In this document: positions 15,674-58,468 of the stretch, piece after piece | Layout: every line of letters begins with the position of its first letter | Position numbering within the stretch: the first letter of the stretch is position 1 | DNA from: Paucibacter sp. Y2R2-4 | GTDB taxonomy: Bacteria > Pseudomonadota > Gammaproteobacteria > Burkholderiales > Burkholderiaceae_C | NCBI RefSeq assembly: GCF_025717535.1 | Contig: NZ_JAJIRO010000003.1 | Coordinates: forward strand, 806,001 to 870,000 | Reading direction: 5' to 3' | Length of the DNA stretch: 64,000 nucleotides | Notes under the pieces: model-generated | The model's input: only the letters and a program-made list of their open reading frames with translations | Database searches by the model: none | What the model was told of the DNA's origin: nothing | Program-made: the position numbers and the translations under genes

Positions 15674-15679
15674 GCTTTG

Positions 15680-22789: not shown

Positions 22790-22899
22790 AAATAATCAAA
22801 TGCTCTTGAAAAACTTCATTGGATGATTAATATTGCATTCAAGCGCTGAGTAATCGCAGCGTTTGATCATCAAAGTAATCATCTGTGAAGGAGATTAGC
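22790..22899. promoter_or_regulatory. AT-rich divergent control region
   Basis: This spacer between the repressor and the small DNA-binding gene is much more AT-rich than its surroundings. It holds ATGATTA at 22823-22829, its inverse TAATCAT at 22876-22882, a further TAATCA at 22793 and a TGATCA palindrome at 22864. These are plausible operators for the XRE-type protein. Confidence 0.5.
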
Positions 22900-24568: not shown

Positions 24569-24677
24569 CGGCTGAGCCTGCTAGCGCGCCATCTCTGCTG
24601 ACTCCAGAAATTTCCATCAGCAGCAAAAGGCCGCAGCCCCTTCAAACCCAACAGTGATTTCGAAATGCCCAAACAGC

Positions 24678-24696
24678 AGGGCAGGGCGGAGCTACG
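24678..24696 (+). repeat. 19-base direct repeat, copy 1
   Basis: AGGGCAGGGCGGAGCTACG occurs here and again exactly 600 bases downstream. It lies about 25 bases before the start of the gene at 24722, so it is in the promoter or leader. Confidence 0.7.
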
Positions 24697-24721
24697 TCCG
24701 CATCCAGCAAAGGAGAACGAA

Positions 24722-25150: not shown

Positions 25151-25277
25151 TATGGGCCCGCTAACCACTCCGCGTGGCTTGAGGCCACCCGCTCGAGCCG
25201 GCCCGCGTCGCGTCTGACGCCAAGGCTTTCGCGGTCCATCCGCATCCACTGATTTCATCGTCAATGTCCCGCAGGCA

Positions 25278-25296
25278 AGGGCAGGGCGGAGCTACG
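25278..25296 (+). repeat. 19-base direct repeat, copy 2
   Basis: Exact copy of 24678-24696, about 30 bases before the start at 25328. Nothing else was recognised in 25151-25327. Confidence 0.7.
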
Positions 25297-25327
25297 CCCT
25301 GATCTTGCCAGCTCACAAGGAATTCCT

Positions 25328-25828
25328 ATGACTGACTATTTCAAGCAACAGAAAACACTTGCTCATGCCTTGCTCTTGTTCGTCCATTTGCATGGCGCTC
25401 CGTCGCAAAGCACGCGACAACATTTCTTCAAGGACATGCGCCGACATCTGGCGCGAACAGGCCACGTGATGAGCTACTCCCAGGGCTGGTGTGTCATCGC
25501 ACCGCTGTTTGGACAGACTCTTCAAAGGAGTCGACACGACGTCTGCAATTGGTTGCTCGACCATGACTTCGACCTCACGGCCGAGACCTACTTTCCGGTG
25601 GACTTCAGAACTCTGCTCACCACCAAGAACTACTTGCACCCCCATGAGCCTAACGACCCATTTCCTGCGCATGTGCAAGAAAGCCTCTCATCCGGCGCCA
25701 GCGAAAATAAGCTGCCCAATGAAGAGAGCGCTGAACGTGTGCGCCGCGTGACGGAGGGTCTCCTGCTGAACGCTCTCAGCTGGTTCCAGTACTTGGTGTC
25801 GGATCTGAAGGAGGTGGATCATGCTTGA
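25328..25828 (+). CDS. Hypothetical protein
   Basis: A 166-residue soluble protein with an AAGGA site before the ATG. It is rich in His and aromatic residues, and contains a TGHVMSYSQGWCVIAPLFGQ block reminiscent of a small replication or DNA-binding fold, but I cannot assign a family. It overlaps the next gene by eight bases, implying coupled translation and related function. Confidence 0.7.
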   Translation: MTDYFKQQKTLAHALLLFVHLHGAPSQSTRQHFFKDMRRHLARTGHVMSYSQGWCVIAPLFGQTLQRSRHDVCNWLLDHDFDLTAETYFPVDFRTLLTTKNYLHPHEPNDPFPAHVQESLSSGASENKLPNEESAERVRRVTEGLLLNALSWFQYLVSDLKEVDHA

Positions 25829-27022: not shown

Positions 27023-30000
27023 ATGGTCTCGAGTCGCCGTGTCAATGTATCTCGTCAGTTTGCAAGCCGTACGCTTGGAAAAGTGCGCCCCAGTCGTCTT
27101 TTGTTGGCGCTGGTCAGTCGGGCCAGTGCGTTGTGGTTGGGTTGGTTGCAGTCTCGGTTGAAGCGAGTGCAGCGTTGGTACTCGGGGCAGCTTGATCGGC
27201 TTGCAGCAGCGCGAGGTAGAGGCCATGCAGCGGAGATGCCGCAGTTCAAGTTCGAAAGCCTCGAGAGCCGCCTCCTGTTGTCGGCCGATTTGGTGCCTGG
27301 TAGTCATTTTCTGGTGCCACAAGAAGATGCGGTGACCCGTCGAGCTTTCGAGTCACCGAGCTTTCTGGATCAACCCCGCGCGAAAATTGCGGTCGCACCG
27401 GGTGACCTTAGAACGCAGTCTGTTGCCGCTGAGCCATCGGTGACCTTGACCGGGCCAGGGACGGTGGATTGGGTCAAGCTGCAGTCAGGGAGCTACTCAC
27501 TCAAACTGTCGGGTACGACCTCTCAGAGTACCTTGAGTCTCAATGCCGTCAGCGGTCAACGGGTGGACATCTCGTCCATCCAAGTTGTTTCGGACATCGG
27601 TGCGATCAATCTATCGCAAGCTGATTTCTTTGGCATCGGCATGTTTCAGGCCGGTGTTAAGAGCCTTACTCTTGGGAGCATTCAGTCATCTTTCATTGAC
27701 GTTGCCAGTGGTGCGAGTTTCAGTCTGACGGCAGCGAAAGTTTCAGGAACTCAGCTTTCAGCTCGGAATTCTGCACTGACTGTGAATGTGGCCGATTGGG
27801 CACGGGGCAATGGCAATAACAGCATTAACGCTGCGAGCTTGCTTGCCTTGAATGCCACGGGCAATCTTGACGTGGACATCTTTCTGTCGGGCACGACTTC
27901 AGGAAATACGCTCGGCAACGTCTCCGTGGGCGGTCTTGTTGGTGGGGGAGTTTGGAGCGTTCACGGACGAGCCAACAGCATCAATGCAGGTAGCACTGCT
28001 GCTGCTTGGCGCGTCAATGTCGACGGAACACTGACTCAATTTGTCACCAAGGGCGATGCCTCCGGTGATCTGGCCGTTGCAGGTCTACAAGTCTTGCAAA
28101 TCGGCGGTTCTGCAAGGAACCTGCATCTTCTTGTTGGCGCCAATTTGGGTGACGATGCCGTTCTGGGCGGCACAGGAGCGAACGCTGATAGCTTCAAGGC
28201 AGGCACTTTGGCGCGCCTGCGTGTCGTCGGTGACATGATTGACAGCACCGTGTTTGTGAGTGTTGATCCAGTCAACGGAACATTCAGCGATGGCGATGAC
28301 CGCCAAATTGGAACTTCTGCCCAACGCCTGCAAGAGCTGCTTGTTGGTGGAGGTTTGTTGGGGCTGACAAGTATTGCTGCGCCCCAATACCCGGCTACGG
28401 TTCGAATTGGAGGTGTCGTCCTCAATCCGCAAACCGTTCCGCAGTTGCGGACAGCCCCGGCCGACATTGTTCCCCCGAGAGTCACTGAGTTCAAGCTCGA
28501 CCCTGTTGACGATTCGGGTACTGTTGGAGATGGCATAACTTCTATACCTAGTGTCAAGCTTGTGGGCCTCAGTGAGGCGGGAGCGACCGTCGTACTGCGC
28601 CGCGCAGGGGGCAATGTAGAGATTACGCGCACAACGGTGGAGCCCACTGGGACCTTCGCCTTTACAGGTGTTCCACTGGTCCTTGGCGACAACGCCTTTG
28701 AAATCGCCGTGAGCGACGCTTCGGGCAATCTCACCAAGCGCAGCTTGGTCCTTACCAGGGTTCCTGCTCCCGATGCCGAGGCTCCTTTATTGACTTTGGA
28801 ATTGCTCAATGACACAGGTTCATCGGTAAGTGACGGTATCACTTCTGATGCCAGTTTTGTTGGCAAAGCGTCGGATAACGTCGGTGTTACTCGTTTGCTC
28901 GCCATACTGGATCCGGTAAGCGATGCGTCAACATGGACGGAGCTGACCAATCTGGTCGCCGCTGACGGTAGTTTCAAATTCAATCGGGCAATTCTGGATG
29001 GCCTCGCTGGTGGCTCGCTCACAGAGGGCATTCATACTTTGCGGGTTCAGGCATTTGACGCCGCCGGCAACAAGTCCGTGGTGCGCGAGCGAGTTTTTAC
29101 CTTTGACTCCCAATCGCCTGAATTGACGGCAAGGCTTGCGGCAGACAGTGACACGGGCACCCAGGGGGACACCAACACTTCCAAGTCCATCGTTACCTTG
29201 GAAGGTACATCTGAAGCAAAGGCCTTTATCTCGCTGCGCAAGGCCGGTGCATCGGCTGATTTGGCCAGTATTGCTGCGACCGCAGCCGGTACTTTCAGCT
29301 TTGCATCCATCAGTCTCGATCTAGGCGAAAACGCCTTTGACTTCCGCGCCACCGATCTAGCGGGCAACACACGCACGCTCCGACTTGTGATCACCCGGAG
29401 TGCGCCGGGTGATGCAGAGCCTCCAAAGCTGAGTCTGTCATTGGCGAATGACACGGGTGTATCCAAGCAAGATGCAATTACCGCTGACCCGACTGTGAAG
29501 GGTGCGGCCACCGATGACGTTGGGGTTGCCAAGCTCTTTGCTGCATTGGACCCCGTCAGTGATGTCTTGAGCTGGACTGATTTGTCTAGCCTGCTGGGCC
29601 CAGACGGGAGCTTCACTGTCAGCCGAGCTGTGCTGGATACTCTCGCTGGCGGAAAACTCGCTGACGGCGCCCACGACTTGCGCATGCAAGTCTCCGATGC
29701 GGCAGGGAACACCTCCTCAGTCGCCAGGACTCGGTTCACTCTTGATACCCATAATCCGCAGCTGACCAGCTTTGGTTTGAGCGTTGCTGACGCAAGCAAT
29801 GCCGCAGGTGACGAAACTTCGGCTGCAACGGTGCAGCTCAAGGGCCTGGCCGAAGCTGGTGCCACCGTGCAATTGGCCGCTCAGGGCCTTTCAGGAGTGG
29901 CGGGCTTGGGCGGTGCGTTTGTATTGCCAGGCGTTGCCCTCAAGACCGGCGCCAATCTGATTGAATTGACCGTGACCGACGCGGCTGGCAACAGCAGCAG

Positions 30001-33000
30001 CCTCTCTCGAACCATCACTCGCAATGCCAATACCCAGCCCGACGCGGTGCTGGCGTGGAACCAGGTGGCTCTGCGTGCTATCCAGCTTGATGTCACGGAC
30101 CCGCCGGTCGCGACACGTGTGCTGGCCGCCATGAGCTTGGCTCAGTACGACGCTTTGGCGGCGATAGAAGGCACACCCGCATTCCTGGTCCAGCGCTCGG
30201 CAACAGGGGATGTGAGCGCCCAAGCGGCTGCCGCTCAAGCGGCTTACCGTGTGCTTTACGCCCTATATCCCGGCCAACGTGCCAGCTTCGATGCTGCGCT
30301 TGCGACCAGTCTGGGCGCTATCCCCGAAAGCTCGGCCAAAGCTGCTGGCATTGCCTTGGGCGAAAGCATTGCGCGAGCCATCATCGAGATCCGCGCCAAT
30401 GACGGCTATCTGAACTTTGTGGCCGATGACGGTAGCACCGCCATCGGCAAGTGGCGCCCCACAGGCCCCATGTTCCTGGTAGCACAAGATCCTCAGTGGG
30501 CACAGGTCACACCGTTTGCCTTGACCTCGCCCAGTGAGTTCCGCGCGCCGCCGCCGCCGAGCCTGGATTCGGCCGAGTACGCCGCCGCGCTCAACCAAGT
30601 CAAGAGCCTGGGCAGCGCCACGGGCAGTACCCGCACTGCCGACCAAACCCAACAAGCCCACTTTTGGGCCGATGGCGCTGGCAGTTACACGCCGCCTGGC
30701 CATTGGAACCAAATCGCCGAGCAGGTGGCTTTGGCCAAGGGCAACTCCCTCAGTGCAAATGCGCGCTTGATGGCGCAGCTCAATGTGGCCCTGGCCGATG
30801 CGGCCATCGCCTGCTGGGACACCAAATACAACTTCGACCTCTGGCGCCCAGTCACCGCCATCCAGAATGCCGATCAAGACGGCAATGCCGCCACCACGCA
30901 AGACGCCAACTGGGCGCCGTTGCTCATCACGCCGCCACACCCCAGCTATGTGTCGGGTCACAGCAGCTTCAGCGCAGCCGCGGCCTCCGTGTTGGCCGCC
31001 ACCTTTGGTGACAACACCGCTTTTGCCACCACCAGCGCCACCCTGCCGGGTGTCACTCGCAACTTCACCAGCTTCAGCCAGGCTGCTGATGAAGCGGGCA
31101 TGAGCCGTATCTATGGGGGCATCCACACCACCTTCGACAACGAAGCAGGCAAGCAACTCGGCGCCAAGGTGGGCAAGGCCGTGCTCGACCGCTTTGCACT
31201 GACCGAAGACAAGCAGGCACCCACCATTGCCCTGGCTGACAGCCCTGCTGCCAGCAACACCAACCCCAAACTCACCGGCCAAGTGCTGGACAACCTTTCT
31301 GGCGTGGCCAGTGCTCAGGTGAGTGTGGACCAAGGCGCCTGGCAAGACCTGACCCTGGATGCCACCGGCCGCTTCAGCTTCAGCCCCAGCTTCAAGCTCG
31401 ATGGCACGGCCGATGGCGTTCACGCCATCAGCATCATCGCCAAAGACGCGGCAGGCAACGTCAGCAAGGAGCTGAGCCGCAGTTTCACACTCGACACCAA
31501 GGCCCCCACGGTCAACCTGAGCAGCCTGGCCGATGGCGACAAGCTCTCCGCAAGTTCCCGCCTGACCGGCACTGCCGCCCCGAATGGCTCCACCCTGGCC
31601 AGCCTGAGCTACCAAATCGACGGCGGCACCGCCCGCACGCTCAACTTTGACGCCAGCACTGGCAAATTCGATGAGGCCCTCGTGCTGCGCGACCTCAGCG
31701 TCGGTGACCACACCCTCACCCTCACGGCGAAAGACGCCGCGGGCAATGTCACCACGCTCAGCCGCACCGTCAAGCTCGACCAACTCGCCCCCTTCACCAT
31801 CACCAAGCTCACCCCAGCCGCCGGAAGCGGCGATGTGGGCGTGACCTTCCGCCCGCAAGTCTTCTTCAGCCGCGCGGTCAACCCCGCCACGCTCACCGCT
31901 GACAGCTTCTACGCCACCGGCCCCGATGGCGCAAAGGTGCCCGCCACCATCGTGCCGGCCCTGGACGGCAGCTTCGCCTGGCTGTTTTTCACCAACCCCA
32001 TGCCCGGTGGCTCCAACGTCACCTTGCACCTCAAGGGCTCGTCCATCCGAGCTGCGGGTGACGGCGCCTTCTTGGATGGCGACAGCAATGGCAGCGCAGG
32101 CGGAGACTTCGCCTGGAGCTTCACCACCGTCAGCACCACCAGCGTGCTCGGCGCCAAGCTCAGTGGCAAGGTCGTGGACCCCGGCGCCGACCTGCTGCCC
32201 ATGACCTTCGACGACATCCGTCGCGGGCCCGACGGCGTCATCCACACGGCCGACGACGTTTTCTTGAACCCCATCGTCCACGCCAAGGTCTTCATCGTGG
32301 GCCGGCCCGACCTGGTCACCTACACCGACGCCAACGGCAACTTTAGCTTCGACAACGTGCCGGTGGGCAACGTCAAGGTGGGCATCGACGGCAGAACGGC
32401 CACCAACACCCCGGACGGCATCTTCTGGCCCGAGATGGTGATGGATACCACGCTGCGCCCCGGCATCACCAACACGCTGATGGGCAGTATGGGCTCCACT
32501 CAGAGCCAAAACGAGAACGCGGATCGGCAGGAGGTCTACCTGCCAAGGGTGCAGACCAGCGCGTTGCAGACCGTGAGCAACACCGCCCAGACCACGATCA
32601 CCGTGGACGAGAAGTCGGCGCCGGATCTGACGGATGAGCAGCGGGGTGAGCTCAAGCTCGTGGTCGCGCCAGGCTCAGCCGTGGGAGCGGACGGCAAGGT
32701 GCTTACTGACGTGAAGATCGGTGTGAACACCGTGCCGCCCGAACTCATCAAAGACATGATGCCAGCGGGCTTGACTGGCATCACGGTGGCAATGACTATT
32801 CAGGCGCCGGGGGTTGCTAGTTTCCAAACACCAGTAGAACTAAGATTTCCGAATGTTTACGGGATGGCGCCCGGAGAGAAAACTTCAATCTTTAGCTTTG
32901 ATCACAACACCGGTCGTTTGGTGATTACTGGAACAGGGACGGTTTCACCGGACGGTAAGGCAGTTGTATCGGATGCGGGATCAGGAATTCTGGCCCCAGG

Positions 33001-36000
33001 CTGGTATGGGCCAACGCCACCAGGCTGCTCCTTGACGGTGCCGAACGATCCACCGAAGAAACCGGACCCCAAATGTGACCCCACAGGAGTTGGACTATCC
33101 CTGGCCGGACTTGCGCTCGGTGGAGCAGCCATCGGCTTGGCTAGCACAGTCAGTGCGCCGGTAGTAATTGGACTCGGTCTGGCAGGCGCAGCTTTGGGAG
33201 CATATGACGAGTATCGCCAGTGGAATGGTCAAACACCCCAAGAGCGAGGTCAAGCCCTTGCGGAGTTTGGTGCAACGAGTGTTGTTGGTACGGGCCTTGG
33301 TTTTCTGCCGGAAGACTCGCCACGAACTGTTACAACCATCACAAACACCCGTTTCGGACTCACTAGTTCCGAAGTAATTGGTCGCGGATCTAGCTTAGCA
33401 AGTAAAGCCGGTAAGGCGCTGGGTTGGCTCGGTGTGGGCCTTAGTCTCAGGGACTTATATAACCGGGCAAAGGACTGTTTAGACGAGAATGGAATTCTCG
33501 GCCGTGAGTCGCAACTTCTGATGGCAAGCGATACGTCTTTTAGCAGTCAAGGTCTTGAATCTGTTATCACGTTCCTACAGAGGCAAGAGGCCGCTGCCAA
33601 TGAAATGACAGCTGCTTTGCAAAGCATTTACGGCAATAGTCTTAAAACTGTTTTGCCAGACTTTGGAAGAGACGTATTCATGACGATCTCTGGAGGAAAC
33701 ATTGTTTTCCTGGATATTTTTGGAGACTCCGTCAAGAGCGCGAATGGCTTGGATGCATTTTCAATTGCAATCGCAGATCTATCAAAAAACATTGACGTCA
33801 CCTCCGATGTAGTTAGAGACGGCTTACTTGCCTACTCCTTGGCTTGCCAGAAAATGGCCGATGCTTACACTTCGTTGCCTGATGTGGATAACCTGCTTCG
33901 TGAAGTAGAGCGCACTTATTCGATGCTAATTCAGCACGAAACTATCGAAGCCAGCGGTTTGCCGAACTCCGACGGCAAGACAAACACCTTTTATTCGATC
34001 GTAGATGCTGCGAACAATGTGGTTCTCAGAGGGGTCGGTCGAGATGGGTCAATAGACGGAGTATTGGCCGCAAATTCAAAATTTTTTGTAAGCACTTACG
34101 ATATTCAATCGAACTCTTATGGTTACGCAATAATTTCAACGGGAAGTAGCGGAGTCAATAGTTACACGATCAATGGGATGGCGAACGGGCGAATTCAACC
34201 ATTCACGCCAAATGGTAGCCTTCGAGACAGTGATTTTGATGGTTTGGCAGATGCGGCAGAAGAAATAATCGGCACCTCGGCTTCCAAACAAGATTCTGAT
34301 CATGATGGTATTTCTGACCTTGCGGAGATTTTGCAAGGGCTTGATCCACTTGGCGGTATAGGTATACCTACTGGTTTGGTTGGCGCCGTTGCTCTAAAGG
34401 GCAATGCGCAACAGGTGGTAGTTATTGATGGCACAAGAGTTGGTGACAAGTTGACCGCCTTGGTTGCTACAGGCACACAAGGACTGGCTGTTATTGACGT
34501 GTCTCAGTTTACAAAGCCCCAGGGGTTGGCTGAGATTGGTCTGCCCGGCAACAGCGCCGACGTCGCAGCAGATGCCAATCGCGGCCTAGCTGCAATCGCC
34601 GCCAACGACGCCGGCCTCCACATCGTCGACATTTCCACCCTTGCTTCACCGCGCCTAGTTCAAACCGTCACCTTCCCAAGCCCCGCCACCCACGTCAAAG
34701 TCCGCGACGGCATCGCCTACGTCGCCACCGGCACCAACATCGCAGCTGTCGACCTGAACACCGGCGAGCAACACGCGACGGTCGACCTCGGCGCCCTGAG
34801 TGGCAGCACCCTGCTCGACATCGCCATCGACGGCAACACGCTCTTCACGCTGGACGCGTCGAATGTCTTCCGCGCCATCGGCATCAACGGCGATGTGCTT
34901 ACTCTGCTGAACTCGCTGACCCTGCCGTCTTCAGCCACCAACCTGTTCGTCGGCGGCGGCGTGGCCTATGCCGGCGCGGGCAGCGCCTTCCAGCAGGGTT
35001 TCAGCACGGTGGATGTGCGCGACCCCACCAAGATGGCTCTGCTAAGTGGGCCAGATGCGGTCAACATCGCCGGCGGGGCCTTTGCCGCCAATGGCTCGGG
35101 CCTGGGCGTGGCCGTGGGCAGCCTCAATGGCATCGGCAATGTGCTGCATGTGGTGGATGTGTCCGACCCCACCCGCACCGACCGCTTTGTCACCCAGATC
35201 AACCTGCCTGCCGCGCCGCGCGGCCTGGCCCTGGCCAATGGCCTGGCCTTCGTCGCCGACGGCACGGGCGGCCTGCAGATCGTCAACTACGCCAGCTTCG
35301 ACACCAAGGGCAAGGCGCCGACGGTCAGCGTGGTGGTGGACGCCACCGATGCCGACCCGGCCACCACCGGCACGCAGGTGCTCGAAGGCCGCAGCTTCAC
35401 CGTGCGGCCCGCCGTGACCGACGACGTGCAGGTGCGCAATGTAGAACTGCTGGTGAACGGCGTGGTCGTGGCCAACGACCCGTCCTTCCCCTTCGACTTC
35501 ACCGCTCAGGTGCCCACTATTGCGGCAGCGGGCAACAAGCTCCGCATCCAGGTGCGCGCCACTGACACCGGCGGCAACGCCACGCTGAGCGACGCCATCG
35601 TCTACGACGTGGTGCCCGACACCTTTGCGCCGGTGCTGAAGTCCGTCAGCGTGGAGGAGGGTGCCAAACGCTTCTTCGTCCGCTCGGTGGACTTTGCTTT
35701 TGACGAGCCGCTGGACACGGCACGCCTCACCACCGCCGCCGTGCAACTGGTGCGCGCTGGTGCCGACGGCAAGTTCGGCACGGCCGACGATGTGGTCGCG
35801 CCCGTGACGCTGGACTTCCGTTCGCAAGGTCAACGCGTTTCCGTTTTGACCAGTGGCTATTTGCCCCCAGGTGACTATCAGCTCACCATTCAGGGCTCGG
35901 CCATCAGCGACAAGGCGGGCAACAAGCTGGGTGCGGACATCGTCCGCAAGTTCACCATCCGCCCGGCCAGCGATGTGCGCGCAACGGTGGGTACACCTGA

Positions 36001-39000
36001 AATCTTGACCGCACCGTCTGCGAACCCGATGCAACAGATCGGGATCTCGGTTCCGTTCGATCCCGCTAGTGGTCGGGCTCAATTTGGTTTGATCGATGCC
36101 AATGGCAACCGCTCGACCACCACGGTCAGCGCCACCCGTTGGGACAGCAGCAAGGGCATCGCCTATTTCACGGTGCCCACCAATGCGGTGACGGGTGACG
36201 TCACCGTCTACGGCATGGTGGATGGTATCCGTACTGACTATCCGGACGGAACCTTCCCGCTGCAGATCGTGCCAGTAGTGAGCAACGTTCAAGTGCAGTC
36301 GGTGAGTGCTGACGGGAGCAGTGCCGTGGTGGTTCTCACGGGCCGAGGGTTCGTGGAAGGCAACAACAGCGAGTACCGCTTTGGCACAGGTGCGTCCGGC
36401 GCGGTCATCACCGACGCTGGATCTAACGTCGGTCCTGACGTGCAGCAGGTCTACGATTACAGCATCGGCCAATACATCAACGGCCAGGTGGTACTCACAG
36501 TGCCGTTGTCCAACGGAGTTTTTGGACCGATCAGCGTGAAGACCGGCGGCGGCACCAGCGCCACCTTCTCGCTGAGCCTCACCAGTGTGCAGGCCACCGC
36601 CCTGTCGGGTACGCCCGCCGATGCGAACCAAGCCTCGGCCAACCCCGGCCAAGCCATCACGCTCGTGGGCACGGGCCTGACCACCGATACCGATGTGCTG
36701 CTGCGCTTCACCAACTACAGCGGCAACCTGGAACTGGTCAAGCTCAACCCCATCGCCGCTTCGGCAGATGGCAAGCAAGCCACCCTCGTGGTGCCCATCC
36801 AGGCCAACGGTGCGTTCACGCTGCAGATCTTTGGCTCTGCGAGCCAGCCGCTCCTGCAGATCGTGCCCACGCTCAAGAGCTTTGACGACAACGGCAATCT
36901 CTATGGAGCCGGCTTTGTCGAAGGCAATAGCACCTACCGCTTCCCTGGTCGTGCCGTGGTGGATACGGACATCAACGCGGGGGCCGATGTCTCTGCTTTC
37001 TATGACCCCAATGTGGGCTATTACTACGGCGGCAACGTTCGCTTCGATGCTGCCACGCTGACGCGTTATGGGCAGGGCGCCTTGAGTGTGACCACCGCCG
37101 GCGGCACGTCGGCGCCCATCACGCTCACCAGCGTGCGGCCCGGCAGTGACACGGCCGCCATTGGGCAACTCAGCGACGTGGCCGTGGCTGCCGATGGATC
37201 ACTGTGGACGATCGACACGACCAACCCCGGGCACATCCTGCGCATCGACCCGGCATCGGGCCAAGTGCTGCAGACTATCACCTTGGACGGCACGAATTTT
37301 GGTGGCAGTTACACCGCCAACTATGCTGGCCTGCAAGTGCTGCCTCAGGCCATGAGCTTGGGCGGCAAGAGCGTGCCTGCCGGCAGCCTGCTGCTGTTCA
37401 ATGGCAACTACAACCAGATCGTGGCCGTCAATCCGAGCACTGGCAGCGTCATTGCCAAGCTCTCTCCACCCACGAACTACACCTTCACCGCCGGCCTCTT
37501 TGACGCCACCAGCGGCCACCTGTTTGCCCTCTCGCAGAACTACAACCAACTCATCGAGCTCAACCCAACCAACGGGGCCGAGATCGCCAAGGTCAACCTG
37601 CCGATCAACATCCAGAGCTGGGCCGGCATGGCCATCGATCCGAGCACAGGCGACTTCTGGATCGGTGGCGCCAACGGCGGCAGCCAACTGGTACAGGTCA
37701 ACCGCGCCGGCGTCGAGCAGCGCCGTGTGGATATCAGCCGCCAGTTCAGCAGCGGCAGCATCTCCGGCTTGGCCTTCGCGGCTGACGGCACGCTGCGTGT
37801 GTCTTCTACCTCGGGCTCGATTTTTAGCATCAGTCTGAGCAGCATGGACTACGCCACCCTGCCGGCCACGCTGACGCAAGTTAACGCCATTCAGTTGCAG
37901 GGCACCGCGGCCCAGAACGGTGTGGCCGCGGCCAACGTCGGCCAGGTGATTGAGTTGATCGGCACCAATTTCGGCGCAAACACGCAGGTGCTCTTCAATA
38001 CCCGCGACAACGCTGGCAATACCGCTGTCGTGTCCATCAAGCCCAGCCTCATTGACGCCAGCGGCACCCGCTTGCAAGTCCTTGTGCCCGACCTCGCCAG
38101 CTCGGGTGACGTGCGTGTGGTCAACACCGGCATCGGTGGACGTGACCTGGGCTTTGGCAGCTCCTATACCGATGCCATCTACCGTGGCATCACCACCACC
38201 TTCACGGCCGGCAGCGACACGGCCACAATCCGCTTTGCGGACGGCGGGCTAGAGGCCCTGAACAACGAGAGCTGGGGTCTCGACAACGTCATTGTCAAGC
38301 AAGGCGCCACGGAGATCTTCCGCGACAACTTCGAGGGCGGTTCCAAGACGAATTGGAGCAATCGAAGTACCAACAAGGAGGCCCTAGCCACCTTCGGTGA
38401 GTTCTCTGGGCGCTTCAACAACGCCAGCCAGACTCTGAATCTCACGGGCCTGACTGCCGGCCAGACTTATACGCTCAGCTTCGATGCTTACATCATCGAC
38501 ACCTGGGACGGCAGCAACCCCAGCGTTGGGCCTGACGTGCTGCAGGTGAGCGCCGATGGCAAGACTCTCTGGCGTGAATCCTTCGCCAACGGCTACAACG
38601 ACAGCCGCTCGGTGCAGACCTACGGTGCAAGCGCAAGCATCAGGCTGCAGATTGTCCCAACGCTCGCCAGCATGAACGGTGCTCCTGGCACCGACAACGC
38701 CTTCACCTTGAACGGCTCGGGCTTCATGGAAGGTGCGACCACGCTGACCGTGGGCGGTGTGAGCATTGTCGACCCCGACACCGTCACCAACATCTTCGAC
38801 GTCTCGGGCAACCGCAACAACAGCTTCAACGTTGTGGCTCCGCTCACCCTGGACGGCCCGGTACGCATCACCACCGAGGGGGGCTGGGTTGAATTGCCTG
38901 GCTATGCCTACGGCGTGCAGCCGCTGTCGCAGTTCAGCAGCATCACCGTGCCCAGTAGCGGTCAGAACACAGCGCCTACCGACGCCAGCCAGCCCTGGGC

Positions 39001-49402: not shown

Positions 49403-49425
49403 AAACGGAGTTGTTCAATAGATCG

Positions 49426-49446
49426 CAATACTGTTGCTAAGTATTG
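49426..49446 (+). other. Hairpin between the giant gene and the PEP-CTERM gene
   Basis: CAATACT (49426-49432) and AGTATTG (49440-49446) form a perfect seven-base stem without a T run. It may stabilise the mRNA end or mark a processing point. Confidence 0.4.
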
Positions 49447-49479
49447 GTAAAAATCATTCGAAGCTTGAAGGATTAAATC

Positions 49480-50055
49480 ATGTCAATTTTTGCTGGCCCA
49501 AGAAATCTTATGTCTGGATTTATTTCAAAGATAGTATTGCCATTCGCCCTTTTGGCTGCTGCTTTCAGCGCCTCCGCTGGCGTAGTCGTAAATTACACGG
49601 CGACGGATATTCAAGATGTCGTTGTCGGTCATGATCGCTGGCGGTATGACTATGTGATTACTGGCCCGCTGCAAAATAACGGAGGGATTAATCTCCTGTT
49701 TGTTTGGCAAGACTATGCAAATATTTCGATTGTGCAAACTGATCCGAATTTGGATGCTCTTGTCACGGACCCAATTCCTTTGTTGACAGCCGACGGTCTA
49801 GTGACCGCAACTTCGATGCTGGATGCTGTTTCAGGAGTGCTCGCCGTGGAATTCGACTGGGTAAAGATTGGAGCTCCTGGAATTCCTGGTGAGCAAACCT
49901 TTGAGGTGTTTGACGCTCAATTCAATGTCTACCAGGGCGGGCAAACATCAATAGCAGGAACACCTCCGAATAACATTCCAGAGCCTGCGGCAATTCTGTT
50001 GGCTGCTACTGGACTGTTTGTTTCGGGTTTGGTCCGTCGCCAGAACCGCGGCTAA
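49480..50055 (+). CDS. PEP-CTERM sorting-domain protein
   Basis: The 191-residue protein has a signal peptide (hydrophobic core then cut near SASAG, about residue 33) and a C-terminal PEP-CTERM domain: the PEP at 167-169, a hydrophobic span (AAILLAATGLFVSGLV) and a basic RRQNR end. Such proteins are anchored in the inner membrane and then cleaved by exosortase EpsH/XrtA, usually for release into extracellular matrix. The body is beta-rich and of unknown function. AAGGA lies eight bases before the chosen ATG; ATG 49510 is an alternative. It sits between the giant gene and the export operon. No exosortase gene is in the window. Confidence 0.88.
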   Translation: MSIFAGPRNLMSGFISKIVLPFALLAAAFSASAGVVVNYTATDIQDVVVGHDRWRYDYVITGPLQNNGGINLLFVWQDYANISIVQTDPNLDALVTDPIPLLTADGLVTATSMLDAVSGVLAVEFDWVKIGAPGIPGEQTFEVFDAQFNVYQGGQTSIAGTPPNNIPEPAAILLAATGLFVSGLVRRQNRG

Positions 50056-50230
50056 ATCCAGAGGGCGATGTATTGGGTTTTTTGGAGTGAAATGGGCGTC
50101 TTTAGGGGGGCAGCTTCAAATAGACGGTCTTTATCCGCTCACTCTATTCTTCCAATACTTGCCTTTCAGCGTTTTACGTTTGGGGCGCCGATATTTTGGT
50201 GCGAGGCACCCTCTTCTTCGATTGGCGAGC

Positions 50231-51610
50231 GTGTTTCGCAATTTGACGGTCCGATTCGTGCGTTTATTCACTGCTGCTGTTGCGGCGACATTCTCTGCAG
50301 CGGCTTGTTGCCAACCCCTTATTGAGTTGAGTACTCGTGCGATGGCCGCGGACCCCGCTGTTCGGACGAGTGCGGCTGTATTGCGAGCAGCGCAAGAGCG
50401 TCTATATCAGGCCTATGCTGCGTATGGACCGACTGCGAACCTCTCCGCCACAACAAGTGACTCGCGTTACAGAGAAGCGCCAGCGCAGCTGCTGAGAACC
50501 TTTAAATCAGATCAAGTGGTTGTTCAGGTGAATCAACCGATTTTGAGGGGGGCTCTGTTTCCTGCGATGCAAGCAGCGCGGGCTCAGCTTGAACAAGCTG
50601 AGAGTGCGCATAGCCAGTCCAGGATTGAGGCTCAACAACGCTTGGCTGAGGCGGTATTGGAGGTTTTCAAAGCTCGGGACGTTCTGGCACATGCCCGTTC
50701 ACTTCGAGAAGCTCATGTTGAACAGTTGGCCGCAGCGCGGCGTAGTTTTCAGGTTGGGCGATCAGCATCTCCTGAGGTAAGGGAGGCAGAGGCTCGAGTT
50801 GACCATTCCGTCGCTCAAGTCTTGGTCTCTGAAGCTGAACTGGATTTCCGGACGCAAATACTCGCGGAAATTGCCGACGGTCCTACGCCGTCGTTGTTGA
50901 AGCGTGCGGTCGCTCCACAAGCGTTGCCGCCACTGCAAACAAATGGAGTTTTGGAATGGCTTTCACAGGCTGAGCGTGAAAGTCCACAAATGCGGCAAGC
51001 TCAGCTGGCGGTGGACGCAGCAGAAGCGGAGACCCGCAAAGCCTCGCTCGCGCACGCCCCCACGATAGACCTGACTTACAACTACACGCGTTCCAACGAT
51101 ACAGGCACAGTGACCAGCACATTTCCGCGAACGGGTACTTCTGGAACGATTGGAGCGACGCTCACGATTCCATTGTTCGCAAGTGGTGCGACGCAGTCGA
51201 AGGTGGCCGAAACTATCGCGCAGCGTGACAAAGCCCAAGGAGAGTTGGAGCTTGCGCGAAGGAACTTAACCATTGGAGTTCGACAAGCATTCACCACGAC
51301 GCTAACTGCGATGTCCTTGGCCAAAGCCCTTGAAACCGCTGAGCGTTCCCAAGCCTTGTCAGTGCGTGCCAATCAGCGCGGCTATGAGGTAGGGGTCAAG
51401 ACCAATGCGGACGTTTTGGAAGCGCAGGGAAAGCTTTTTGAGGCTCGGCGAGATCTTTCTCGGGCGAGGCACGATGCCTGGGCTAGCTATTTCAAACTTC
51501 GTGCTCAGAGTGGCTTACTCGATGACTCGGATTGGCAAGGGCTAGACGTGCAACTAATTGAGCACCTGCCCGCAGAGGTCGGCCGGGCTAAGGATCGGGT
51601 CGGTACATGA
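50231..51610 (+). CDS. TolC-family outer membrane channel protein
   Basis: TolC-type proteins form a trimeric outer-membrane barrel with a periplasmic coiled-coil tunnel. I placed the start at GTG 50231, which opens a signal peptide (FRNLTVRFVRLFTAAVAATFSA) and gives 459 residues, the usual size; a longer frame runs back to 50018 but overlaps the PEP-CTERM gene. The two long Ala/Gln/Glu-rich helical repeats (about 70-230 and 260-420) and the block PTIDLTYNYTRSND fit the family. The stop overlaps the next gene by four bases. The region 50056-50230 shows no other gene. Confidence 0.87.
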   Translation: MFRNLTVRFVRLFTAAVAATFSAAACCQPLIELSTRAMAADPAVRTSAAVLRAAQERLYQAYAAYGPTANLSATTSDSRYREAPAQLLRTFKSDQVVVQVNQPILRGALFPAMQAARAQLEQAESAHSQSRIEAQQRLAEAVLEVFKARDVLAHARSLREAHVEQLAAARRSFQVGRSASPEVREAEARVDHSVAQVLVSEAELDFRTQILAEIADGPTPSLLKRAVAPQALPPLQTNGVLEWLSQAERESPQMRQAQLAVDAAEAETRKASLAHAPTIDLTYNYTRSNDTGTVTSTFPRTGTSGTIGATLTIPLFASGATQSKVAETIAQRDKAQGELELARRNLTIGVRQAFTTTLTAMSLAKALETAERSQALSVRANQRGYEVGVKTNADVLEAQGKLFEARRDLSRARHDAWASYFKLRAQSGLLDDSDWQGLDVQLIEHLPAEVGRAKDRVGT

Positions 51611-53316: not shown

Positions 53317-53447
53317 CGGAAGCGGAGCCGCCGATCCAGACAAGCGCGCCTGTGCGAGTTTGTGTACCTTGCTTCGCTATGGATGTGCAGTCGAGCAGTA
53401 TGCGGATCTTTGAATCGCCTGCCCTCGATGTTGCCCGAGGGGCCTAG
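53313..53447 (+). CDS. Possible 44-residue coupled peptide
   Basis: An ATGA overlap with the preceding adaptor opens a short frame (MTEAEPPIQTSAPVRVCVPC and 24 more residues, stop at 53445) ending just before the M50 gene. It has two cysteines and no signal peptide. It might be real or just the coupling spacer for the next gene, whose PqqD-like domain makes a small peptide partner conceivable. Confidence 0.35.
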   Translation: MTEAEPPIQTSAPVRVCVPCFAMDVQSSSMRIFESPALDVARGA

Positions 53448-53449
53448 GC

Positions 53450-55600
53450 ATGCAAGCACTATTCTCTGAGCATTGGCATGCATTGAGGCATCTGCAGCCG
53501 AGACTGCGTGATGGTGTTCGGCCTTTGCATAGGCGCCTGCGCGGCCGCTCTTGGGTGCTTCTTTCGGATCCTGTGAGTCATAAATTTCATCGCATGACGC
53601 CGGAAGTATGGGGCGTGCTTTCTCTGTGCAATGGTGCGCGGTCTCTCGAACAAGTTTGGGACATTGCTTGTCAAAAGGCGGATGGCGGAGGGGGCAGCAT
53701 TTCTCAACATGAGTTGGTTCAACTGGTTTCCGCATTGCATTCCAACGACCTGTTGCAGACTCAGGTTTCGCCTGATGCGAGCGAAGTTATCGAGAGATTT
53801 GAACGGCAGCGCAAGGCCAAGCTGAAGCAGAACTGGCTCAACCTGTTGAGCGTGCGCATTCCGATCTTTTACCCTGATAAATGGTTTCAGGGGCAGGTCG
53901 CGCTAGCAAGGGCTGTATTCAGTCTTCCTGTCGCCGTCTTGTGGCTGGCGCTTGTACTCCCCGCGGCTTTTCTAGGCGTGCAGCACTGGCAGGCTTTGAC
54001 GGAAAACCTATCCGATCGAGTTCTGTCCACAAGCAATTTGCTGCTACTTTGGTTCGTCTACCCTGCAGTAAAAGCAGTCCATGAATGGGCTCACGGGTTG
54101 GCGGTTAAGGCGCGCGGCGGGGATGTGCGCGAAATCGGCTTGCTCTTCATTATCTTTACCCCGGTACCTTACGTGGATGCAACGTCTTCGTATGGTTTTC
54201 CTTCCAAGTGGGATCGAGCCCTGGTTGCGGCCGCCGGCATCATGGCCGAGTTGGCTCTTGGTGCAATTGCTGTTTTCGTCTGGCTAGCTGCTGAGCCCGG
54301 GCTAATGACTGCAGTCGCGTACAACGTCATTTTGATCTCCGGCGTGTCAACCATCCTAGTCAACGGCAACCCGTTGATGCGGTACGACGGCTACTTCATT
54401 GCAACTGATCTTTTGGAGTTGCCAAACCTTGCTCAGCGAGCTCAAAGCTATTGGGTATATCTAAGCGATAAATGGCTCTTTGGTGCCCATGATGCTAAGC
54501 CGCCCCTGGCGTCTGATAGTGAAAGAGGGCTGCTCATCGTCTATGGAGCTGTGGCTCCAATCTATCGCTTGCTCATCACCGTCGGCTTGATTTGGTTCGT
54601 TGCGAGCGAATACTTGCTAGTCGGTGCACTTATGGCTTTGATTGCGACTTGGCAGACCTTGCTCATGCCGATCTGGAAAGCTTGGAAGCATCTTGATGGC
54701 AGTCCTTCTTTTGTGCGCAGTCGCGGTCGCGTCAAACGTCGCGCCGGGCTACTAATGGCGGGATTGTTCGGTCTGGTTTTCTTCGTTCCTCTCCCTTTCT
54801 ATTCAGTACATCAAGGAGTTATCTGGCTCCCTGACGAAGCGCTGGTTCGCGCCGAAGCTTCGGGTCAGATCATTGAAGTCCTGACACAGCCAGGTCAAAA
54901 GGTCTCGCCGGGTGCTTCTCTAATGAGAATTGAGAATCTCCCGTTGAACGCTGAACTAGTCCAAGCTGCAGCTTCATTCGCGCAAATTCAGGCCAAGCTT
55001 CGTAGAGCTAGCGTCAACGAACCTGCCAAGATACAGCCAATTAAAACGGAGCTTACCGGGGCTGCTTCTCGGCTCGAAGAAGCGCAAGCGCGCAACTCGG
55101 CGCTAGAAGTCATTGCCTCGAGAGGAGGGGTGTGGATTCCAGAGGCGACCACGGAGCTTGCGGGCAGAGCTGTAAAGCGAGGTGAGCTTCTTGGATACTT
55201 GATTGAAGGGCCGACAGACCGAGTGCGTGTTGCAGTCACACAAGATGACGCGGACCTAGTGAAAAACCGGGTCCAATCCGTAGAGGTCAGATCAATTCAA
55301 CGACCTCATCCACAGTTCAGTGCTCGCATACGACGCGAAGTCCCCGGCGGTGGCGTCGAGTTGGTATCTTCTGCATTGGGGTCAGCGGCGGGGGGCGATA
55401 TCCCAGTTGATCCAGGCGTAGAAGGTGGAAAGCACAGCCTTCGTCCAGTCTTCGACCTTGAATTGAAAATGGGCCAGACATCGACGAGTGCTGTGTTCGG
55501 CGACAAGGTTTGGGTGAGATTTGATCTCGGGGCCACCCCATTGGGCACTCAGTGGCTGCTGAGACTACGTCAAGCATTCCTGACGAGGCTGAGTGTTTAG
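53450..55600 (+). CDS. PqqD-like / M50 protease / HlyD-like fusion protein
   Basis: The 716-residue membrane protein combines three parts. Residues 1-110 resemble a PqqD-type peptide-recognition domain (SHKFHRMTPEVWGVLSLCNG). Residues about 150-450 form several membrane spans with the zinc site H211-E-W-A-H215 and a second motif N307-PLMRYDG with D313, as in site-2 (M50) proteases. Residues about 460-716 form a periplasmic lipoyl/HlyD-like adaptor (SGQIIEVLTQPGQKVSPG). It may recognise and cleave or guide the export substrate inside the membrane. It ends one base before the chosen start of the SecA-like gene. All metal ligands look intact. Confidence 0.85.
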   Translation: MQALFSEHWHALRHLQPRLRDGVRPLHRRLRGRSWVLLSDPVSHKFHRMTPEVWGVLSLCNGARSLEQVWDIACQKADGGGGSISQHELVQLVSALHSNDLLQTQVSPDASEVIERFERQRKAKLKQNWLNLLSVRIPIFYPDKWFQGQVALARAVFSLPVAVLWLALVLPAAFLGVQHWQALTENLSDRVLSTSNLLLLWFVYPAVKAVHEWAHGLAVKARGGDVREIGLLFIIFTPVPYVDATSSYGFPSKWDRALVAAAGIMAELALGAIAVFVWLAAEPGLMTAVAYNVILISGVSTILVNGNPLMRYDGYFIATDLLELPNLAQRAQSYWVYLSDKWLFGAHDAKPPLASDSERGLLIVYGAVAPIYRLLITVGLIWFVASEYLLVGALMALIATWQTLLMPIWKAWKHLDGSPSFVRSRGRVKRRAGLLMAGLFGLVFFVPLPFYSVHQGVIWLPDEALVRAEASGQIIEVLTQPGQKVSPGASLMRIENLPLNAELVQAAASFAQIQAKLRRASVNEPAKIQPIKTELTGAASRLEEAQARNSALEVIASRGGVWIPEATTELAGRAVKRGELLGYLIEGPTDRVRVAVTQDDADLVKNRVQSVEVRSIQRPHPQFSARIRREVPGGGVELVSSALGSAAGGDIPVDPGVEGGKHSLRPVFDLELKMGQTSTSAVFGDKVWVRFDLGATPLGTQWLLRLRQAFLTRLSV

Positions 55601-55601
55601 T

Positions 55602-57665
55602 ATGGAAGTAGCACTCAACGAGCCTCTTCGGCCAGTCAAGCCTGACGATGAACTGCTGGGGCACTTCGCAGCATCGAAGACCGATTTGAGGTGGTTACGA
55701 GGGTTAGCAGGTCGGGAGTTCCGTCGAGCAGACTCGTTACGAGATGAGCGAGGACCTGACGCCGAAACAAAGCTGGATCGGTCATTGCGCAACATGATTG
55801 GATGGCTCCCCCCGGGAAATGAGTCGTCCGCACGAATTGCTGCATTCAACGCCGATATCGAGTCCATGCGGCTGCATGGTGCCGAAGATGCCGAGCTTGT
55901 TCGTCAACTGAATACCGCTTTAGGCATTTTGCGAGTCAGTTTTCATGATGCGCGGGCGCAGGCGATGGCACTTAGCTCCGTTGGGGTCGCCGCAGAGCGA
56001 ACGTTGGGTTTGAAGCCACATCCGGTGCAGTTTTCCGGTGCCCGAACTCTGATGGCCGGACGATTGGCCGAAATGCGTACTGGCGAAGGCAAAACTCTTG
56101 TCGCTGCCATGGCTGCCACAGTCGTAGCTGCCAGTGGGGCTTATGTGCACATTGTGAGCACCAATGACTATTTGGCTCAACGTGACTGCGAAGAGATGAG
56201 TCCTTTGTTCGAGTTCTTTGGACTTCTAGGAGGATTCATCACCGGCCGCATGGAGACTGAAGAGCGTAGAGCTAATTATCAGCAGTCGATTTGCTACGTT
56301 AGCGGCAAGGAACTGGTGTTCGATTATCTGAAAGACCGTTTATCAGGGCACGGTCGACTTCCTGCCAAAGTGGCAGGCCTACGGAGCTTTGTTCACGGTG
56401 AAGCCGCGAAACCAATGATTCCCGCGCTTCATTTTGCTATCGTCGACGAAGCAGATAGCGTGTTGATCGATGAGGCGCGCACGCCCATGATCCTTTCAAG
56501 AGAGGTCGAGGGCATTCATGAACCGGTCCTTCTGCAATGGGCAATCGACAGCGCGAGGGGCTTGAAGGAAGGGCTGCACTTTAGACTCAATCAAGCGAGC
56601 CGCGAAGTGGACATAAAGCAAAGCGCGCTGCAAGCATGCTCCCCAATGCCGGAAGGCGTTAGGGCAATTTGGCGGGCTGAGACCTGGCGATTGCAATTGC
56701 TTCGGCAAGCACTTGCTGCGCTCCATTTTTACAGGCGTGACCAGCAATACATCCTTTTGCCAGGGGAAAAAGAGAGCGATGGACTCAAGGTTCAAATCGT
56801 CGATGAAAGCACGGGTCGAGTCATGCCAGATCGGTCTTGGGAACAAGGCTTGCACCAACTCATCGAAGCCAAGGAGGGGGTAACGATTACAAAAGGCCGC
56901 GACACCCTAGCGCGTATGACCTTTCAACGCTACTTTCGCCGCTATTACTTGCTAGCAGGTCTTACTGGCACGGCAACTGAAGCATCGAAAGAATTGTGGC
57001 AAACCTATCGACTGCGAGTGCATCGATTGCCTTCGAATAGGCCGAGTCAAAAGAAAGAGCTACTTACGCTTTGCTTCTCTGATGCTTCAACAAAATGGGG
57101 TGCTGTTGCTGATGACGCTGTGCGTGCCGCGACTCAAGGTCAAGCGGTCTTGGTAGGCACGCGTAGCGTAGAAGCCAGTGAAACGCTCGCTAGAGCTCTG
57201 ACCGCCAGAGCAGTGGAGTTTTTGGTTTTGAATGCGCGCCAAGACGCTGCAGAGGCTGCCATTGTCGCTGGAGCCGGAAAATCAGGGCGGATCACTGTTG
57301 CGACAAACATGGCGGGGCGCGGAACAGACATCAAGCCTGACGCTGCCACCCTCAATGCGGGAGGGTTGCATGTCATCTTGACTGAGCATCATGACTCGCC
57401 CCGGATTGATCGCCAGCTTTTTGGCCGGTGTGGTCGGCAAGGTCAGCCAGGGACAGTGAGAGTCATGGTCGCAAAAGATGATCCATTGTTTATGAGCCTA
57501 CCGGCACCTTTGCGCGCCTTGTCGACTGCGGGTTGGGGATTAAGACTTCTTGTACGCGTCGCACAAAGCAACGCCGAAAGTCGCGCTTGGCAGTTGCGAA
57601 AACAAACTCTTCTTCAAGACCGCGAGTTGCATCGCATCATTGGAATTGCCGGATTCTCTGCATGA
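55602..57665 (+). CDS. SecA-like ATPase, short form
   Basis: The 687-residue protein carries the SecA motor motifs: MRTGEGKT (158-165), VDEADSVLIDEARTP (281-295), TNMAGRGTD (568-576) and GRCGRQGQPG (608-617). Housekeeping SecA is about 900 residues; here only about 70 residues follow the motor, so the long helical scaffold and C-terminal zinc-binding tail are missing, and the preprotein-crosslinking region is altered. It is therefore an accessory SecA-type motor and not the main one. It starts one base after the M50 gene (ATG 55602; a GTG at 55593 is possible) and overlaps the next adaptor gene. It probably energises export through this gene cluster. Confidence 0.9.
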   Translation: MEVALNEPLRPVKPDDELLGHFAASKTDLRWLRGLAGREFRRADSLRDERGPDAETKLDRSLRNMIGWLPPGNESSARIAAFNADIESMRLHGAEDAELVRQLNTALGILRVSFHDARAQAMALSSVGVAAERTLGLKPHPVQFSGARTLMAGRLAEMRTGEGKTLVAAMAATVVAASGAYVHIVSTNDYLAQRDCEEMSPLFEFFGLLGGFITGRMETEERRANYQQSICYVSGKELVFDYLKDRLSGHGRLPAKVAGLRSFVHGEAAKPMIPALHFAIVDEADSVLIDEARTPMILSREVEGIHEPVLLQWAIDSARGLKEGLHFRLNQASREVDIKQSALQACSPMPEGVRAIWRAETWRLQLLRQALAALHFYRRDQQYILLPGEKESDGLKVQIVDESTGRVMPDRSWEQGLHQLIEAKEGVTITKGRDTLARMTFQRYFRRYYLLAGLTGTATEASKELWQTYRLRVHRLPSNRPSQKKELLTLCFSDASTKWGAVADDAVRAATQGQAVLVGTRSVEASETLARALTARAVEFLVLNARQDAAEAAIVAGAGKSGRITVATNMAGRGTDIKPDAATLNAGGLHVILTEHHDSPRIDRQLFGRCGRQGQPGTVRVMVAKDDPLFMSLPAPLRALSTAGWGLRLLVRVAQSNAESRAWQLRKQTLLQDRELHRIIGIAGFSA

Positions 57666-58468
57666 ACAAAATAGCCCTGGCCACTATTGGCACCCTTTCT
57701 TGTTTGTCTTGCCAGGCCCAAGACTATGACTGCATGATTGAGCCTGCGCAGACGGTCGAAATCCGCAGCCCAGTTGTCGGCATTCTTGAACGGGTGCACG
57801 CAAAGCGGGGCGATCCGATCCGACAAGGGCAGGTCTTGATCAGTATTGAGAGTAGCGTTGAATCCAGTGCGGCAGAGTCCGCCAAGGCCAGAGCGGAGGC
57901 CCAGGGTCAATCGGAGCTTTCTCGAGCCAAAGTCAGTGCTTTGCGGGACAAGGCCCGGAGGCTACAGGACCTCCATGCGGAAGAATTTGTATCTGCACAA
58001 GCTGTTGAGGATGTTCAGGCTGAACTCAAGCTTGCGGAAGCCGAACTACGCGCTGCAAAAGAGAATAATCAGATTGCACATCTCGACCACAGGCAGGCCG
58101 TTGACCAACTGAGACGCCGACAGTTGATTGCTCCTTTCAGTGGCGTTGTAGTTGACCAGTACCTTTACCCCGGTGCTCTGGTTGATGCTGGGGATGCAAA
58201 AAAGCCGGTTCTGAAGATCGCTCAAACGAATCCGCTGCATGTGCAAGCGCTCTTGCCGGTCAAAGCGTTTATGCAAATGAAAGTGGGCCAAGTGGTCTCG
58301 GTTACGCCAGAAGCCCCATTTGATCGCCCGATTCAAGCCAGAATTCGGACAGTAGACAAAGTAGTGGATGCTTCGGCGGGCACCTTTGGCATCGTTGCTG
58401 AGCTTGAGAATTCAAAAGGGAACATTCCTGCGGGACTCCGATGCAAAGTGGCTTTTGTCGTCCGCTAA
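57662..58468 (+). CDS. Periplasmic adaptor (HlyD/RND type)
   Basis: I chose the ATG at 57662, overlapping the SecA-like stop (ATGA), giving 268 residues with a signal peptide (MNKIALATIGTLSCLSCQAQ). The mature part has a lipoyl half (SPVVGILERVHAKRGDPIRQG), a coiled-coil hairpin, a second lipoyl half (LIAPFSGVVVDQYLYPG) and a beta-barrel. It is the second adaptor of the cluster and may complete the conduit to the TolC-type protein. Confidence 0.88.
   Translation: MNKIALATIGTLSCLSCQAQDYDCMIEPAQTVEIRSPVVGILERVHAKRGDPIRQGQVLISIESSVESSAAESAKARAEAQGQSELSRAKVSALRDKARRLQDLHAEEFVSAQAVEDVQAELKLAEAELRAAKENNQIAHLDHRQAVDQLRRRQLIAPFSGVVVDQYLYPGALVDAGDAKKPVLKIAQTNPLHVQALLPVKAFMQMKVGQVVSVTPEAPFDRPIQARIRTVDKVVDASAGTFGIVAELENSKGNIPAGLRCKVAFVVR

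Follow-up and report, generated by a model that had tools for sequence, protein, structure and literature searches.

By what route does a protein of 7,497 residues leave its cell when the genes that follow its own encode a TolC-type channel, two HlyD-type adaptors, a membrane protease fused to a further HlyD region and a short SecA-like ATPase? The question is posed by a 64,000-nucleotide stretch of Paucibacter sp. Y2R2-4, positions 806,001 to 870,000 of contig NZ_JAJIRO010000003.1 (G000:C3:806001-870000 in our numbering), which lies within a genome of 5.13 Mb and is called the window throughout. Here we report that proteins carrying the giant's N-terminal LEPR-XLL tag recur together with the downstream protease fusion (M50/HlyD) in genome samples, and that the class of the tag matches the class of the protease in every adjacent pair. 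From these sequence comparisons we regard it as fairly likely that the locus is a dedicated, tag-addressed exporter for the giant surface protein, type-I-like and free of an ATP-binding cassette (ABC) transporter.

The locus and its cassette

The first-pass annotation of this DNA had described a 22.4-kb frame with an N-terminal LESRLLLSAD tag and no RTX repeats, and this description holds. The giant gene is a real, intact open frame of 7,497 codons on the forward strand (26909-49402), whose start codon is uncertain (27023 was the earlier choice, giving a feature of 27023..49402), and the RTX nonapeptide GGxGxDxU has 0 matches across the 7,497 aa. The tag itself (FKFESLESRLLLSADL...; 27245..27307, forward strand), a proposed address tag, lies near the N-terminus and matches the LEPR-XLL family NF012209 at 32.9 bits against a cut-off of 17; in a profile search this is the only such match in the whole genome, and 0 of 14 control genomes have one. 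Downstream and in the same direction lie a small PEP-CTERM-like gene and then genes for the TolC-type channel, a first adaptor (HlyD1), the M50/HlyD fusion, the SecA-like protein, a second adaptor (HlyD2) and an alpha/beta hydrolase. The TolC-type, two HlyD, M50 plus HlyD and SecA_DEAD (690 aa) calls made earlier were confirmed by Pfam and NCBIfam.

The channel gene (50018..51610, forward strand like all cassette genes) is an open frame whose true start is probably downstream; its product scores 149.6 bits with OEP and 205 bits with type_I_sec_TolC, under the cut-off of 225 for the latter. HlyD1 (P0003; 51607..53316) comprises an N-terminal region, a membrane helix recognized by reading and an HlyD adaptor domain called by Pfam, while a GAF domain, uncalled in this protein, is called in 12 of 14 alignment members. 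HlyD2 occupies 57662..58468; its open frame runs from 57533, and read from the likely start at 57662 the protein has an export-signal-like N-terminus.

The fusion protein (53450..55600) carries M50 (PF02163, 29.7 bits) and HlyD (PF13437, 26.0 bits) domains, both above cut-off, preceded by a PqqD-like region at aa 24-98 (53519..53743) that is a candidate reader of the tag. The earlier PqqD call stands for the family, with PqqD recognized by Pfam in 15 of 21 aligned proteins (best 7e-7), M50 in 21/21 and HlyD_3 in 19/21; in the window's own protein Pfam makes no PqqD call, and the predicted order there, three strands followed by three helices (mean predicted local distance difference test score 83.6), would fit PqqD. 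The M50 motifs HExxH (HEWAH, aa 211-215; 54080..54094) and NxNPxxxxD (aa 305-313; 54362..54388) are invariant in all 21, and among 94 relatives of at least 600 aa they are kept in 94 and 93, respectively. The protease is probably active, because both motifs are nearly invariant among its relatives.

The SecA-like ATPase (690 aa; 55593..57665) has the motor domains, with a Walker A motif (GEGKT, aa 164-168) at 56082..56096, and the preprotein-binding domain. Pfam calls SecA_DEAD, SecA_PP_bind (PF01043, 68 bits) and P-loop_SecA and no scaffold or wing family; the model match stops at SecA residue 612, and against the housekeeping SecA (906 aa) the alignment covers residues 67-660. The parts it lacks are the wing, the two-helix finger and the C-terminal tail.

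The junctions, first described as mostly tight, are mixed: there is a 4-base overlap between the TolC-type and HlyD1 genes, an 8-base overlap between the M50/HlyD and SecA-like genes (or a distance of 1 base should translation begin at the ATG at 55602) and, by reading, a 4-base overlap between the SecA-like and HlyD2 genes if HlyD2 starts at 57662, but a gap of 133 bases between HlyD1 and M50/HlyD.

Tagged giants and the cassette occur together

The module of SecA-like, HlyD1, M50/HlyD and HlyD2 genes is conserved. In a sample of 369 genomes from the host's class, the SecA-like gene is present in 23 (24 genes, all of at least 792 bits), well apart from housekeeping SecA, the next full-length match being a 901-codon frame at 652 bits. 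M50/HlyD directly precedes it in 20 of the 24 neighbourhoods; two of the other four meet contig ends, and the remaining two genomes (G310, G081) carry M50 elsewhere. A search with the M50 alignment found at least 588 confirmed M50/HlyD relatives in named genomes, so that the cassette is a common one. Of the best 80 of these loci, 77 have HlyD1, 54 have HlyD2 and 18 have TolC; a SecA-like gene is present at 75, with three weak matches among them, of which one sits at a contig end. Most hosts among the matches listed belong to the alpha-, beta- and gammaproteobacteria; Nitrospira, desulfobacteria, Geomonas and a single Omnitrophota record also occur.

That tagged proteins and cassette occur together beyond this genome, on which the first-pass annotation had let its proposal stand or fall, was found in two samples and in a set of cassette-chosen genomes. 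With M50/HlyD accepted in the class sample at E <= 1e-40, and no more than three or four candidates scored in any one genome in the M50 and SecA-like searches, 54 of the 369 class genomes have M50/HlyD: 30 of a close type (at least 534 bits in the class sample, at least 640 in the phylum sample, with a profile built from close-type proteins) and 24 of a distant type (all others). A LEPR match is present in 29/369. All 23 class genomes whose tags end S-A-D or A-A-D are close-type; of the remaining six with LEPR, four are distant-type (G177, G284, G224, G319) and two have no M50 (G213, G076). The phylum sample of 239 genomes, which overlaps the class sample in part (e.g., G000, G107 and G224), gives LEPR in 35, M50/HlyD in 78 and both in 34, so that 34 of 35 LEPR genomes have M50/HlyD; 26 of its 31 close-type genomes have LEPR.

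Starting from the cassette leads to the same association. Among 20 genomes hand-picked from the 80 cassette loci, favouring isolates and long contigs and none with a tag seen in the flanks, 19 have a LEPR match, as against 29/369 in the class at large, and 9 of these 19 include a tagged frame of more than 12,000 codons. Two cultured hosts, Dyella sp. OK004 and Luteibacter rhizovicinus LP_13_YM, each combine the cassette with one LEPR match. Within the flanks of the 80 loci the tag pattern occurs at 9 and an open frame of at least 1,200 codons at 44; comparing the giant with the open frames there yields two weak matches, many loci stopping before a giant's N-terminus.

Several observations weigh against a strict pairing. 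Seven of the 30 close-type class genomes have no LEPR match (G264, G265, G008, G360, G258, G179, G094), and LEPR occurs without M50 at threshold in G213 and G076 of the class sample and in G562 of the phylum sample, the tag of G562 having a close-type look with an acidic end. Even where contigs are long, some LEPR genes are remote from every M50 gene (G107:C1:2506229, 610 kb). Weighing these comparisons together, we judge it likely that LEPR-tagged proteins are the cargo of the cassette.

Tag class matches protease class

A LEPR gene lies within 12 kb of M50/HlyD on the same contig in 13 of 39 class cases and 20 of 43 phylum cases, mostly in draft assemblies. The phylum list leaves out 4 of 47 LEPR rows (G000, G107 twice, G224) that are already in the class list, and ten distant-type M50 rows were entered in it; by eye, none of the other listed distant-type M50 rows shares a contig with a listed LEPR gene, but weaker pairs beyond the matches listed (e.g., G544) may be missing. 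In G379, four close-type M50 genes are paired with four LEPR giants of 11,649 to 15,434 codons on four contigs (C1, C17, C25, C29), at distances of 1.7-6.1 kb.

In all 33 adjacent pairs the class of the tag matches the class of the M50 protein (33/33; Fisher 4e-6, a test that, like the others here, ignores kinship): 28 close-type M50 genes adjoin tags ending D or E, and 5 distant-type genes adjoin tags ending D-A-A, D-G-A or D-A-T. At the level of genomes, leaving out G213 and G076 as having no M50, there are 46 tags ending D or E in close-type genomes versus 0 of 10 in distant-type-only genomes (Fisher 3e-11). Two more tags of the other class were found after this count, in genomes with both M50 types (G373, G473), and G373 holds both classes, LEPRFMLSGEG beside the close type and LALEPRLMYDAAG beside the distant type. 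In a set of 20 loci, a tag could be read at 19, each with D or E as its last residue; the pattern did not match at L235. Such a match of tag class and M50 class is the trace expected of a relation between tag and reader, as a correlation rather than as binding.

These results bear on whether the giant is cargo at all or a frequent passenger, brought together with the cassette by shared descent or transfer on a genomic island. Island transfer finds some support in the window, where a phage-type integrase gene (22985-24568) and tRNA-Met genes (15369 and 15535) lie upstream, and in the passages considered here Kamneva, Poudel and Ward (2015; PMC4452313) interpret the locus as laterally transferred. 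However, tag and cassette go together across many families in both samples, also where the genes lie on different contigs or far apart, and the tag class matches the neighbouring M50 class in 33/33 pairs; we consider this explanation very unlikely.

Alongside these pairs, a second branch can be seen at loci L167 and L168 (G224), L207 (G373) and L212 (G397), where D-A-A, D-G-A or D-A-T tags lie near distant-type M50/HlyD. In G224 the giant is followed by a 519-codon frame without identity, two HlyD-like frames and M50, and the genome has no SecA-like match.

The role of the SecA-like protein

The first-pass annotation had made the SecA-like protein the motor of export, and in the close type it is indeed the usual companion; it is not universal. 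An initial count, in which 17 of 23 SecA-like genomes had LEPR and 12 LEPR genomes had no SecA-like gene, was replaced by the three-way comparison with M50 given above, and taking the SecA-like protein as the tag's defining partner proved too strong, as there are LEPR genomes with M50/HlyD and no SecA-like match.

It is therefore worth weighing the reading in which the M50/HlyD cassette exports the giant and the SecA-like protein is only accessory, as a chaperone, gate or delivery factor, with the energy coming from the membrane potential, the housekeeping SecA or folding outside the cell. Consistent with this, and counting against a universal motor, no SecA-like match is found among the matches listed in 6 of 30 close-type genomes (G206, G350, G290, G190, G052, G094, the M50 gene itself running into a contig end in G052 and G094) or in the 24 distant-type-only genomes; at L161, L162 and L163, moreover, HlyD1, M50, HlyD2 and LEPR genes are directly adjacent in this order with no SecA-like gene between them. 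One further copy, in G366, is cut by a contig end and was absent from the first listing until the locus was inspected. The SecA-like genes at L109:12167-14101 and L147:12055-13845 lack both Walker A and the DEAD box and are apparent pseudo-ATPases, that of L147 adjoining a LEPR gene, and only 70 of 77 SecA-like frames retain the helicase motif QxxGRxxRQG. On the other side, all 23 SecA-like genomes in the class sample are close-type, the preprotein-binding domain is retained (PF01043, 68 bits), and 76 of the 77 frames retain Walker A and DEAD; these frames were defined by more than 200 bits and 550 aa, hence without L147 (148 bits) and the contig-cut L144. On balance we find a merely accessory role unlikely and lean towards the SecA-like protein being the motor in the window's own system. 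Across systems, the SecA-less genomes and the degenerate copies at L109 and L147 indicate that M50/HlyD is the constant partner of the tag and that the SecA-like protein, usual as it is, is probably dispensable.

A proposed route for the giant protein

Taken together, the domains suggest a route in which M50/HlyD would be the core of the system and the SecA-like protein its usual motor. Binding of the LEPR-XLL tag would take place in the cytoplasm, with the PqqD-like domain of M50/HlyD as the most likely partner; M50/HlyD, the GAF/HlyD adaptor and HlyD2 would form a trans-envelope conduit with TolC; in most close-type systems the short SecA-like ATPase would thread the unfolded chain into this conduit; and the M50 site, with its conserved catalytic motifs, may cut the tag or a blocked chain. 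Individual steps differ in how far the sequences carry them. That the PqqD-like domain reads the tag is an evenly balanced proposition, and cleavage of the tag by M50 is a shade more doubtful. The lack of a PqqD profile call in the window's own protein counts against the preferred reading.

Alternatively, the cassette may be a machine for maturation or release, acting by proteolysis of the tag or by anchoring, while the giant exits through Sec or through a type I ABC exporter. A gene for an exporter of the LssB type is present in another part of the genome (C1:3396-5507; 798 bits against a cut-off of 693), unlinked to the cluster and out of sight of the first-pass annotation, which had noted no ABC exporter; none of the seven cluster proteins has an ABC domain by Pfam. 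The near-invariant M50 motifs would suit such a machine, as would the nearest NCBIfam relation of the PqqD-like/M50 part, the peptide-maturation protease daptide_HExxH, which at 135 bits remains under its cut-off of 300. In the window's giant, moreover, the residues ahead of the tag include a moderately hydrophobic stretch (best mean over 15 residues, 1.67), which may be a Sec-type signal; many other LEPR tags are, judged by eye, preceded by short basic stretches. Both the ABC gene and this stretch weigh against our preferred reading. However, a cluster that combines TolC with three HlyD-type adaptor regions points to a conduit, the giant is devoid of RTX nonapeptides, and the cluster has no ABC domain, which leaves maturation without export a rather improbable account.

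Within the export reading, one further possibility, which we put forward tentatively, is that the locus represents a separate pathway in which a PqqD-type domain, joined in one protein to an intramembrane protease and an envelope adaptor, reads a LEPR-XLL leader like that of a ribosomally synthesized and post-translationally modified peptide (RiPP). There would be at least two mutually specific classes of tag and reader, S-A/G-D/E tags with the close M50 type and D-A-A or D-G-A tags with the distant type, and one branch may have taken up a SecA core without its SecY-inserting parts, which some lineages then lost or inactivated.

Further features of the giant gene and its surroundings

Pfam recognizes in the giant the Ig-like domains Big_13, Big_6 and Big_5, an OmpL47-type domain, PAP2, LVIVD and PPC. 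The PAP2 or vanadium-haloperoxidase-like domain (30779..31180, forward strand; 37.2 bits) contains three active-site-like motifs, KX6RP, PSYVSGH and SRxxxGxHxxxD. About 12.9 kb of the gene (36253..49162, forward strand) consists of a 4,476-bp coding unit in 2.9 head-to-tail copies with zero mismatches (36253-40728, 40729-45204 and, partial, 45205-49162). Because these copies are mismatch-free, the true length of the giant gene depends on the assembly; the tandem units may have expanded very recently or be an artefact of assembly.

The small PEP-CTERM-like gene between the giant and the cassette (P0001; 49480-50055) had first been counted as part of the set, and we reject it as a member: its PEP-CTERM score of 18.3 bits is under the Pfam cut-off of 20.7 and it has no relatives in the 24 or in the 80 cassette neighbourhoods, which places it probably outside the system. 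Two exosortases are encoded elsewhere in the genome (G000:C1:507485-508237 and C1:1340325-1341089), by which its product could be sorted.

Upstream of the giant, the region 15369-25828 has the look of a genomic island; besides the tRNA-Met and integrase genes it holds an AAA/SMC-like gene (19297-22389) and small genes without a Pfam match. The window contains one SecY gene (8182-9492).

Comparison with known systems

Giant adhesins usually leave by type I secretion of the LapB/HlyB type, with HlyD adaptors, TolC, an ABC exporter, RTX repeats and a C-terminal signal. The present system shares with it HlyD-type adaptors, a TolC-type channel and a very large, repetitive surface protein, but its cluster lacks an ABC exporter, its giant lacks RTX nonapeptides, its candidate signal is N-terminal, and it has M50 and SecA-like subunits in addition. 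If our reading is right, large surface proteins would exit Gram-negative cells without an ABC transporter, addressed by an N-terminal tag instead of a C-terminal signal.

Accessory Sec systems (SecA2, SecA2/SecY2) likewise use a second SecA for special cargo. The SecA-like protein of the window nevertheless falls below the cut-offs of all SecA2 and SecA NCBIfam models, the SecA2 scores being 431/1085 bits for TIGR04397, 394/725 for TIGR04221, 367/930 for TIGR03714 and 313/1100 for NF012136; it lacks the C-terminal domains, and its partners are HlyD, M50 and TolC, with no SecY among the seven cluster proteins. SecA-type motors would, on the reading preferred here, operate outside the SecY pathway.

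With daptide_HExxH (NF041824) the fusion protein shares the order of a PqqD-like region followed by an M50 membrane protease, but here the protease scores below that family's cut-off, is fused to HlyD and is linked to proteins of thousands of residues. The giant is above cut-off for NF012209 (LEPR-8K), a family that amounts to a domain name only, and LEPR-XLL is mentioned once in passing in each of PMC10868602 and PMC9611531, as far as the passages concerned go. A full-text search of the open-licence literature without bioRxiv preprints found no paper linking LEPR proteins to the cassette. The association of the two suggests that some of the largest known proteins have an export route of their own, and a large class of giants (open frames of up to 19,427 codons were seen) gains a candidate exporter.

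The closest precedent is the secondary locus of SecA_DEAD, GAF-HlyD, Peptidase_M50 and HlyD genes described by Kamneva, Poudel and Ward (2015; PMC4452313). In the passages considered, its distribution is wide and patchy, it sometimes includes OEP and it has no ABC gene; SecA_DEAD is proposed as the ATPase and M50 as a possible pore, the broader role is called "completely unknown" and no cargo is named. Methylobacterium extorquens AM1 is among the strains with the operon according to that article (META1p2402-2399). The likeness extends to a SecA_DEAD protein without most or all of SecA_SW, M50 with HlyD, GAF-HlyD, HlyD/biotin-lipoyl and the lack of an ABC gene; in the window's HlyD1 the HlyD domain is present, whereas GAF is called only in aligned members (12/14) and not in the protein itself. 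From that description, as far as those passages go, the module was already known and the same ATPase idea already published. The terms "lepr" and "adhesin" are absent from the main text of that article, and its passages considered here describe no tag, tag classes or SecA-less versions such as those found in this study. As far as the open-licence literature shows, what is new here is the link to a cargo, together with the tag classes and the branch without SecA, and a module described in 2015 without a known role gains a concrete and testable candidate cargo.

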